Shown piece after piece: positions 32,725 through 35,684 of a DNA stretch of 64,000 nt. The translations under genes were made by a program, and so were the position numbers. Source of the stretch: Candidatus Methylopumilus sp. Its GTDB lineage: Bacteria > Pseudomonadota > Gammaproteobacteria > Burkholderiales > Methylophilaceae. Positions within the stretch are counted from its first letter, which is position 1, and each line of letters starts with the position of its first letter. The stretch covers positions 62,001 through 126,000 of the forward strand of contig JAHEEA010000030.1 of assembly GCA_024640945.1 (NCBI GenBank), read 5' to 3'. The notes below the pieces were generated by a model. That model had not been told where the DNA came from. It made no database searches and saw nothing but the letters and a program-made list of their open reading frames with translations.

Positions 32725-34266
32725 ATGTGTGGAATTATCGGTATTGTCGGTAAAAACCCTGTTAACCAATTGTTGTACGATGGTTTGCTTGTATTGCAAC
32801 ATCGAGGTCAGGATGCGGCAGGGATAGTCACCTGTAATGGCAATACTTTTTACATGCATAAGAACAATGGCTTGGTGCAGGATGTGTTCCAAACACGTCA
32901 TATGCGTAGCTTGCAAGGTAATGCAGGTATCGCTCATGTGAGATATCCAACTGCAGGATCATCGTCAGCAGCGGAAGCGCAACCTTTTTATGTGAATTCT
33001 CCTTTTGGTATCGTGCTTGGACATAACGGCAACTTAACCAACTCTGCGCAGTTAAAACAAGAAATGTTCCGCCAAGACTTACGCCATATCAACACCAATT
33101 CTGATTCTGAAGTATTGTTGAATGTATTGGCTCATGAAATTGAGCAAACAGCAAAAAGTGCGGTGCTGAATTCAGACATGATTTTCGATGCAGTTGCTGG
33201 CGTACATCGTCGTGTTAAAGGCGCTTATGCAGTTGTCGCGATGGTAGCAAACTTTGGTTTGATTGCTTTCCGTGATCCAAATGGCATTCGTCCTTTGGTG
33301 ATTGGTAAATCGCAAACTGAAAAGGGTGTTGAATATATCGTTGCTTCTGAAAGTGTGGCGCTTGATGTGCTGGGTTTCACTTTAGTGCGTGATGTAGAAC
33401 CTGGTGAGGCTGTGTTCATTGATATGGATGGTAACTTCTCATCACGCCAATGTGCACCGAATGCTAAGCTCAACCCATGTATTTTTGAATACGTGTATTT
33501 AGCACGTCCAGACTCACTAATCGACAACGTGTCTGTTTATCAAACGCGTTTGCACATGGGCGAGAGCCTTGCTGAAAAGATTAAACGTGAGTGGAGTCAT
33601 CTACAAATCGATGTCGTGATCCCAATTCCAGATACCAGCCGTCCAAGTGCTGTTCAATTAGCTAATGCGCTGAATCTGACTTATCGTGAAGGCTTTATTA
33701 AGAATCGCTATATCGGCCGTACTTTTATTATGCCTGGCCAAGCGCTACGTAAAAAATCTGTGCGCCAAAAGCTCAATCCAATTGGCATGGAATTTAAAGG
33801 TAAAAACGTATTGTTAGTGGATGATTCTATTGTTCGCGGTACAACTTCACAGCAAATCGTACAGATGGCGCGTGATGCAGGTGCGAATAAAGTGTTCTTT
33901 GCTTCTGCGGCACCACCAGTTCGCTTCCCTAACGTTTACGGTATTGATATGCCTAGCCGTGATGAATTACTTGCAACAGGCCGTACTGATGAAGAGATTT
34001 GTAAAGAAATTGGTGCAGATGCGCTGATTTATCAAGATCTTGATGATTTGGTGAAAGCCGTTCAATTAAGCAATCCTAAAATTGAAGTATTCGATTGCTC
34101 ATGTTTTGATGGCAAGTACGTAACTGGCGATATTGATGAAGCGTATTTAAACGCGATCGAGTCTGCACGTGGCGATGTTCAGCAAGCGAAGCGTCCTGCT
34201 AATTCCATTACCCAAATGGATTTGAATTTAGTGAATACTAAAGAGCACGAGGAAGAGGCTAGTTAA
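32725..34266 (+). CDS. purF: Amidophosphoribosyltransferase
   Basis: [10 protein letters not shown]-terminal nucleophile; [21 protein letters not shown]. Confidence 0.98.
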
Positions 34267-34318
34267 ACCATTTCCTCCTGCCAGCTTGACGATAGCAAGC
34301 TTGAGGGATAACATGGTT

Positions 34319-34395
34319 ATGCGCTGATTTGAGTTGCTGAAAAGCATAGCTCAGCTTGCGGGCGCTAAATAAATTCAGCTAAAGCGAGTGCTAGT
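34319..34395 (+). promoter_or_regulatory. SAM-II-like riboswitch upstream of metZ
   Basis: GCGC-TGATTTGAG ... CTTGC-GG-GCGC-TAAATAAATTCA-GCTAAA: P1 GCGC/GCGC plus the conserved UGAUUUGAG, CUUGC, UAAA and GCUAAA segments expected for SAM-II; directly upstream of metZ. Confidence 0.7.
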
Positions 34396-34400
34396 AAAGC

Positions 34401-34437
34401 AAACCCGTTTTAGCCTAATCGCAAAACGGGTTTTTTT
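34401..34437 (+). terminator. Intrinsic terminator between riboswitch-like element and metZ
   Basis: AAACCCGTTTTagcctaatcgcAAAACGGGTTTTTTT. Confidence 0.85.
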
Positions 34438-34438
34438 A

Positions 34439-34454
34439 TGTCTCATATGAGACA
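34439..34454. promoter_or_regulatory. Perfect 16-bp palindrome upstream of metZ
   Basis: TGTCTCATATGAGACA, 15 nt before the metZ ATG. Confidence 0.5.
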
Positions 34455-34469
34455 AGCAAAGGTAATGAG

Positions 34470-35684
34470 ATGGCAACAGATATCGATTTAAATGGCTTCG
34501 ACGAGAGTGCATGGCACCCTGAAACTCTAGGTGTGCGTGCGGGTAACCAAATGACAGAATTTGGTGAAAACTCAGAGGCATTATTCCTAAACTCAAGTTT
34601 CCGCTTTAAAAGCGCAGCGCAAGCAGCAGCTCGCTTTGGTGGCACCGAGCCTGGGAATATCTATTCTCGCTTCACCAATCCAACTGTAAGCATGTTTCAA
34701 GACAAGCTGGCTGCTTTAGAAGGCGCTGAGCAATGTGTTGCAACATCAAGTGGCATGTCTGCTATTTTGGCTTGTGTGATGGGTCTATGTAGCGCTGGCG
34801 ACCATATCGTTGCTTCACGTAGTATTTTCGGTACCAGCGTTCAGCTTTTCAGCAACATTCTAAAGCGCTGGGGCTTGGAAGTAACTTTTGTATCGCTAAC
34901 GGATGTGAGTGCTTGGCAGGGCGCGATTACGCCAAAAACAAAACTATTTTTTGTTGAAACGCCTTCTAATCCTTTGACTGAAGTTTGTGATATTCCAGCC
35001 TTGGCTAAAGTGGCACATCAGGCAGGTGCTTTATTGGTGGTGGACAATTGTTTCTGCACACCGGCGATTCAACGTCCATTAGCTTTGGGTGCGGATATTA
35101 TTATTCATTCTGCGACTAAATATATCGATGGCCAAGGTCGCTGCCTAGGTGGTGCAGTATTAGGGTCTAAAGTACACATGGAGCCTGTTTATGGATTCTT
35201 GCGTACTGCAGGCGTCACCATGAGTGCTTTTAATGCTTGGGTGTTCCTAAAGGGCCTTGAGACATTGTTTATTCGGATGGAAGCACACGCTAAAAATGCT
35301 TTAGCCTTAGCAACTTGGTTAGAAGCGCAGCCACAAGTGGCACGTGTTTATTACCCAGGGCTAAAATCACATCCGCAGCATGCGCTTGCAATGAAGCAGC
35401 AATCGAGTGGCGGTGGCATTGTTACTTTTGAAGTCAAACCACAAGCAGGTCAGACTGAACAAGAAGCCGCTTGGGCATTGATTGATGCGACTAAGTTAAT
35501 TTCTATTACGGCTAACTTGGGCGATGCTAAGAGTACGATTACGCATCCAGCAACAACTACGCATAGCCGTGTGACGCCTGAAGCGCGTGCGGCGGCGGGT
35601 ATTGTTGATGGCTTGGTGAGAATTGCCGTTGGATTGGAACATATTGAAGATTTAAAAGCTGACTTAGCACTGCTAACAAAGTAG
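34470..35684 (+). CDS. metZ: O-succinylhomoserine sulfhydrylase
   Basis: Cys/Met PLP family; NIYSRFTNPTVSMFQDKLAALEGAE, IIIHSATKYIDGQGRCLGG. Confidence 0.93.
   Translation: MATDIDLNGFDESAWHPETLGVRAGNQMTEFGENSEALFLNSSFRFKSAAQAAARFGGTEPGNIYSRFTNPTVSMFQDKLAALEGAEQCVATSSGMSAILACVMGLCSAGDHIVASRSIFGTSVQLFSNILKRWGLEVTFVSLTDVSAWQGAITPKTKLFFVETPSNPLTEVCDIPALAKVAHQAGALLVVDNCFCTPAIQRPLALGADIIIHSATKYIDGQGRCLGGAVLGSKVHMEPVYGFLRTAGVTMSAFNAWVFLKGLETLFIRMEAHAKNALALATWLEAQPQVARVYYPGLKSHPQHALAMKQQSSGGGIVTFEVKPQAGQTEQEAAWALIDATKLISITANLGDAKSTITHPATTTHSRVTPEARAAAGIVDGLVRIAVGLEHIEDLKADLALLTK

Follow-up and report, generated by a model that had tools for sequence, protein, structure and literature searches.

A putative SAM-II riboswitch with an inserted hairpin and a predicted terminator switch upstream of metZ in Candidatus Methylopumilus

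Introduction

SAM-II riboswitches share completely conserved positions at U10–U12, U20–C23 and G42–A47 in the numbering of the 2QWY structure (PMC3764141), and Corbino et al. described in 2005 a promoter just before their P1 stem (PMC1273637). SAM-II elements followed by terminators were noted in 2005 and 2007, beta-proteobacteria included (PMC1273637, PMC2258182). In S. meliloti, the SAM-II element of metZ gives rise to a terminated leader, the RZ sRNA (PMC9373788). In beta-proteobacteria, Leyn et al. described in 2014 an orphan metXZ element, composed of a pseudoknot and a terminator and located upstream of metXW or metZ, and placed it before metZ in three Methylophilales (PMC4239095). In addition, Khoo et al. 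reported in 2012 the candidate Bp2_Cand287, which adjoins purF, metZ and metX (PMC3521395).

Here, we analysed the region upstream of metZ in a 64,000-nt stretch of DNA from Candidatus Methylopumilus sp. (hereafter the window), to which all coordinates below refer unless a relative is named, and compared it with related loci and with the systems described above.

Results

Organization of the purF–metZ locus

The 203-nt gap between purF and metZ contains a SAM-II-type aptamer at 34320–34388, followed by an intrinsic terminator at 34401–34437. The upstream neighbour purF (32725–34266, plus strand) scores above the cut-off of its curated model. The downstream gene, at 34470–35684 on the plus strand, is the putative regulated gene; it was identified by the curated model NF006003 (698 bits, above the cut-off) as metZ, encoding O-succinylhomoserine sulfhydrylase, as the initial annotation had named it. 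A Shine-Dalgarno-like AAAGG precedes it at 34458–34462 on the same strand. The order purF–element–metZ is identical in the related locus L081, and the nearest named metZ genes belong to uncultured Methylophilaceae, Methylotenera, Methylophilus, Methylovorus and Methylobacillus.

A sigma-70-like promoter, TTGACG-17-TAACAT, is predicted at 34286–34314 on the plus strand, from which transcripts would begin approximately with the first base of P1. Promoter matches of at least 9/12 just 5' of P1 occur at 81% of 91 related sites, as compared with 6% of shuffles. At the other end of the leader, a palindrome, TGTCTCATATGAGACA (34439–34454), separates the U-tract of the terminator from the Shine-Dalgarno sequence of metZ; its hairpin is kept in the genus with compensatory changes, such as TGCCTCAAGTGAGGCA in L011. 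An upstream open reading frame starting from the AUG at 34438, at the end of the U-tract, was considered and rejected, as relatives have AUG, GUG, CUG or others at this place.

Architecture of the aptamer

The motifs from which the initial annotation recognized a SAM-II pattern are all in place, namely GCGC (34321–34324), TGATTTGAG (34325–34333), CTTGCGG (34355–34361), GCGC (34362–34365), TAAATAAATTCA (34366–34377) and GCTAAA (34378–34383). They correspond to an H-type pseudoknot on the plus strand. Stem P1 is formed by GCGCU (34321–34325) and GGCGC (34361–34365). It is followed by loop L1, GAUUU (34326–34330), the third strand of the putative SAM pocket, which corresponds to G8 and U10–U12 of 2QWY. 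The pseudoknot stem P2 is formed by the 5' strand CUC-A-GC-UUGC (34350–34359), with UUGC equivalent to U20, U21, G22 and C23 of 2QWY, and the 3' strand GCUAAAGCGAG (34378–34388), with GCUAAA equivalent to G42–A47. Its core consists of UUGC (34356–34359) with GC[U]AA (34378–34382), extended by GC:GC and by CUC (34350–34352):GAG (34386–34388). The A-rich loop L3, UAAAUAAAUUCA (34366–34377), has a conserved AAAU pattern and, by analogy with the literature on 2QWY, may be the minor-groove partner of P1.

Each of the 13 completely conserved SAM-II pocket nucleotides is present in the window, at 34328–34330, 34356–34359 and 34378–34383, and all 13 are invariant across 73 related sites (alignment A1). 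In L1 of the relatives, AUUU is likewise invariant and the G nearly so. P1 is 97% paired among the 73 sequences, double-sided changes occur in four of its six pairs, and variants include GCGUC/GACGC in L081 and CACGUC/GACGUG in Pandoraea. Taken together, the P1 and P2 structure carries 55 double changes as compared with 16.7 in shuffles, a value reached in 0 of 500 shuffles, and the signal collapses when the structure is slid. The P2 core pairs are present and invariant in all 73 sequences, so that no covariation signal is possible there; one outer P2 pair covaries (60/73 paired, 52.8 expected, p 0.002). All sequence tests other than the Rfam cut-off thus support the assignment of 34320–34388 as a SAM-II (metA element) aptamer, with SAM as its presumed ligand.

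A family-specific model detects the element, which the Rfam model misses

The initial annotation had pointed to a significant match with RF00521 (SAM-II; cut-off 36 bits in Rfam release 15) as its check, and none was obtained: at gathering and permissive thresholds the element scored 10.8 bits (E 5), which is not significant, and the tight stretch alone gave 10.6 bits. By comparison, the same core upstream of metZ in L001 scores 45.2 bits, and several more relatives reach 26 to 35 bits. A class-level RF00521 survey of 276 genomes found a site above the cut-off in 25 of them and at E up to 1e-3 in 95. The cut-off was reached by 1 of 41 close relatives and by 3 of 20 related metZ loci, the latter indicating that it is insensitive for this branch.

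A covariance model, R1, was built from alignment A2, which comprises 21 sites of relatives outside the window's genus. R1 matches the window at 34319–34389 with 76.8 bits (E 1.9e-20); nowhere else in the 64 kb does its score exceed 11.7 bits. This score, the complete set of pocket nucleotides and the covariation of P1 bear out the SAM-II identity first put forward in the initial annotation. In a survey of the family, R1 found the element in 160 of 187 genomes. Among the 80 nearest named metZ loci, 46 have a match, every one on the coding strand, including those of Methylovorus menthalis, Methylobacillus rhizosphaerae, HTCC2181, Nitrotoga, Sedimenticola and Pandoraea. The window's own genome has one good copy, and a search for a second copy there returned chance-level weak matches only (14.1 bits and less). 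The models for SAM-V and SAM-II long loops (RF01726) did not match the window. Genes downstream of related sites are metZ, metX, metK or metY-type genes of methionine and SAM synthesis. Because homologous metZ-upstream sites reach 45.2 bits and the family-specific model is decisive, the RF00521 miss is, on sequence grounds, a false negative of the Rfam model, that is, a limit of the search model and not a defining molecular feature.

The same miss could be read as a sign that the element belongs to a separate class, the metXZ element of beta-proteobacteria, unrelated to SAM-II and with another ligand; Leyn et al. called that element novel and found SAM_alpha only in Rhizobiales and Rhodobacterales (PMC4239095). 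However, every completely conserved nucleotide of the SAM-II pocket is retained, sites of the same family exceed the RF00521 cut-off, and the downstream genes are SAM-II genes, all of which makes such a class improbable. We favour SAM-II, and, judged by genes, taxa and anatomy, the metXZ element is very probably the same RNA as the element in the window. When the literature was searched for links between the metXZ element and riboswitches, the original paper alone was returned.

A further reading concerns the opposite strand, where the Rfam family RF02424 (Bp2_287) scores 27.2 bits (E 1.6e-4) in the window, below its cut-off of 70 bits. In L081 (1501–1703), RF02424 exceeds that cut-off with 107.5 bits and matches the reverse complement of the SAM-II-type leader at purF–metZ, and in L001 (1485–1601) it matches the reverse strand at the same place at which RF00521 matches the plus strand. 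These matches might reflect a small RNA transcribed from the minus strand. Such an RNA is hardly to be expected here: reverse-complementing the RF02424 consensus yields the aptamer, it is the plus strand that carries the promoter and U-tract, and the P1 and P2 nucleotides are those of SAM-II on that strand. In addition, the published RT-PCR of Bp2_287 relied on oligo(dT) priming and subsequent PCR, a procedure that, as described, leaves the strand unsettled (PMC3521395). Sequence comparison points to a plus-strand SAM-II leader, of which RF02424 very probably represents the antisense strand.

Predicted terminator and antiterminator

The intrinsic terminator, AAACCCGUUUU/AAAACGGGUUU, occupies 34401–34437 on the plus strand, with a stem at 34401–34433, a U-tract extending to 34437 and a folding energy of −14.8 kcal/mol. 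It starts about 17 nt after GCUAAA and about 12 nt after the end of the P2 arm (34388), farther downstream than the distance of about 6 nt initially given. A simple terminator scan found none in this region because it allowed loops of 3–8 only. A terminator had also been taken as a departure from the usual action of SAM-II, which does not apply, as terminators behind SAM-II have already been described (PMC1273637, PMC2258182); the riboswitch class, its presence in beta-proteobacteria and the terminator mechanism are known, and the window is no exception.

The 3' strand of the aptamer is complementary to the terminator. The antiterminator 5' arm GCUAAAGCG (34378–34386, plus strand), which is common to P2, forms nine continuous pairs, one of them G–U, with the 3' arm CGUUUUAGC (34406–34414, plus strand), which doubles as the terminator 5' arm and loop edge. 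A small hairpin, UGCU-AGUAA-AGCA (34389–34401, plus strand), is predicted to be nested in the antiterminator, and its stem is kept in the genus. The antiterminator duplex in the window beats shuffles that keep base counts only (p 0.005). Among 84 terminator-bearing sites, whose non-independence as related sequences inflates the counts, the complementarity is significant at p<0.05 in 71%, and in 98% it covers part of the terminator 5' arm.

Structure predictions agree with an exchange between the two folds. Up to the terminator loop, the predicted fold contains P1, the L1 hairpin and the antiterminator (−31.7 kcal/mol). When GCUAAAGCG is withheld, mimicking the pseudoknot, the antiterminator is absent from the predicted fold; for the full-length transcript, the prediction contains the terminator. 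The antiterminator is part of the minimum-energy pre-terminator fold at 67 of 82 sites, including 30 of 31 in the family, as compared with 11% of shuffled controls. The bases flanking GCUAAA show no significant covariation with the terminator arm (19/47 paired, 16.8 expected, p 0.28), so that the antiterminator rests on strong complementarity and position, not on covariation. The leader combines a terminator with a mutually exclusive antiterminator that shares the switching strand of the aptamer, the arrangement of a transcriptional OFF switch. This mutual exclusion in the predicted folds lends support to control of metZ through the terminator, as the initial annotation had suggested.

Proposed mechanism

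We propose, with a probability of about 0.88 based on the sequence analysis, that the element is a SAM-II riboswitch that shuts off metZ through early transcription termination; we infer SAM as the ligand together with the direction of regulation, the use of the promoter and the role of the hairpin. The leader would have its own promoter, with transcription beginning at about 34319. In the absence of SAM and with the polymerase past 34414, the segment at 34378–34386 would pair with that at 34406–34414 as the antiterminator, occupying the terminator 5' arm and allowing transcription to continue into metZ. With SAM, UUGC would pair with GC[U]AA of GCUAAA, L1 would lie in the groove and SAM would be clamped. 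GCUAAA would then be locked in P2 and no antiterminator could form, so that the hairpin at 34401–34433 would arise, transcription would stop at the U-tract and metZ would be off. The inserted hairpin would be an architectural extension, the GAG:CUC base of which competes with the outer CUC:GAG pairs of P2.

Alternatively, the SAM-II element might act mainly on translation or RNA stability, the terminator being a constitutive brake as reported for S. meliloti metA, where a terminator behind a SAM-II element acting on the Shine-Dalgarno sequence is not predicted to be SAM-controlled (PMC9373788). In some small-genome Methylophilaceae (L121, L122 and L124), moreover, the core stands directly before the Shine-Dalgarno sequence without a terminator. 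In the window, however, some 70 nt separate P2 from the Shine-Dalgarno sequence, with the terminator in between, and the 3' strand of the aptamer is complementary to the terminator 5' arm. We consider this alternative unlikely and retain transcription termination as the preferred mechanism.

A hairpin inserted between L1 and P2

The initial annotation had noticed an extra hairpin in the first loop, and this feature holds up. The hairpin GAG...CUC, GAGTTGCTGAAAAGCATAGCTC (34331–34352, plus strand), is a Methylophilaceae feature inserted between L1 and P2; it has a folding energy of −6.7 kcal/mol (z −2.8, p 0.023 as compared with shuffles), and its GAG:CUC base is kept in the family. The spacing between GAUUUG and AGCUUGC is 4–8 nt in most sampled relatives, whereas it is 13–36 nt in most Methylophilaceae. 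The insert is variable in sequence yet usually folds, with a mean z of −1.9 over 27 inserts, and folding reaches significance for single inserts from the window's genus and from L027, L029, L032 and L033. In 21 family sequences outside the genus, the GAG:CUC base is paired wherever both sides have letters, with a single compensatory change, A–U for G–C, in L026.

The CUC segment has two identical GAG partners, one at 34331–34333 in the inserted hairpin and the other at 34386–34388 in P2, after GCUAAAGC. Since the same CUC serves both, the hairpin base and the outer P2 are mutually exclusive. The initial annotation had drawn the pseudoknot as TAGCTC paired with GAG-T-GCTA; its CUC:GAG part is retained, and its UAG part was discarded, as the genus shows UAG, UGG, UUG, UGU and UAA at this place with the supposed partner unchanged.

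Variants in relatives

In other relatives, the insertion occurs at a different place. L094, L099, L101, L102 and L181–L186, which are Burkholderia-like or Pandoraea, have an insertion in L3 that is mostly foldable as a hairpin. The aptamer therefore has insertion-tolerant sites at the L1/P2 junction in Methylophilaceae and in L3 in Burkholderia and Pandoraea types.

The expression platform also varies. In L121, L122 and L124 (about 1490–1560), where the core precedes metZ without a terminator, the P2 strand runs into GAGGA, the Shine-Dalgarno sequence, and the platform appears to have shifted from transcriptional to translational control. Tandem arrangements, with a terminator-type SAM-II and, after it, another core of the SAM-II or SAM-V-like kind, are found in L120, L125, L128, L082, L085 and L088; in the first three, the second core is close to a Shine-Dalgarno-like sequence. 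A SAM-II core lies directly upstream of metK (SAM synthetase) in L083 (1534–1636), where metK was confirmed, and upstream of metK in L058 and L069, where the gene was called from its first residues. L214 contains two identical aptamer copies (453–508 and 1248–1303) on one strand, about 800 nt apart, both flanked by promoter-like and terminator-like sequences of their own.

Discussion

Our analysis indicates that the curated model hardly detects a whole branch of SAM-II, and it may help to clean up two annotations, those of an orphan methionine element and of an Rfam 'sRNA' family. We also offer a model of the switch at the level of base pairs, which is testable in cultured methylotrophs such as Methylovorus or Methylobacillus. 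We advance more tentatively, at somewhat less than even odds, the combined proposal that CUC swaps between the two GAG segments, through which the inserted hairpin would tune the switch, and that the metXZ element and RF02424 both represent this riboswitch. If this is true, SAM-II would, across the beta-proteobacteria and many gamma-proteobacteria, be a main regulator of homocysteine synthesis.

Comparison with known systems places the element next to SAM-II, also called the metA element or SAM_alpha (RF00521; 2QWY), with which it shares P1, L1, the P2 H-type pseudoknot and all completely conserved pocket nucleotides, as well as the promoter just before P1, a methionine gene and the frequent terminator. 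The element in the window differs by its 21-nt insert between L1 and the P2 core (4–8 nt in most sampled relatives), its short outer P2 CUC:GAG and its score below the Rfam cut-off. SAM-V (the Pelagibacter motif, PMC2704228) and SAM-II long loops (RF01726) share the plan of the pocket, whereas SAM-V has no final 3' pairing.

The S. meliloti metZ SAM-II (PMC9373788) shares metZ and a predicted SAM-dependent terminator that gives a leader of about 100 nt; it differs in being alpha-proteobacterial, and the available part of the report does not mention an L1 hairpin. The metXZ element was published without a ligand and unlinked to SAM-II (PMC4239095). Bp2_287, or Bp2_Cand287_SIPHT (RF02424; PMC3521395), shares the locus type with purF, metZ and metX, and its model matches the reverse complement of the element. 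In contrast to the SAM-II-type leader described here, its annotation is that of a Burkholderia small RNA encoded by the other strand, and its Burkholderia-type members carry the hairpin in L3 and not in L1.
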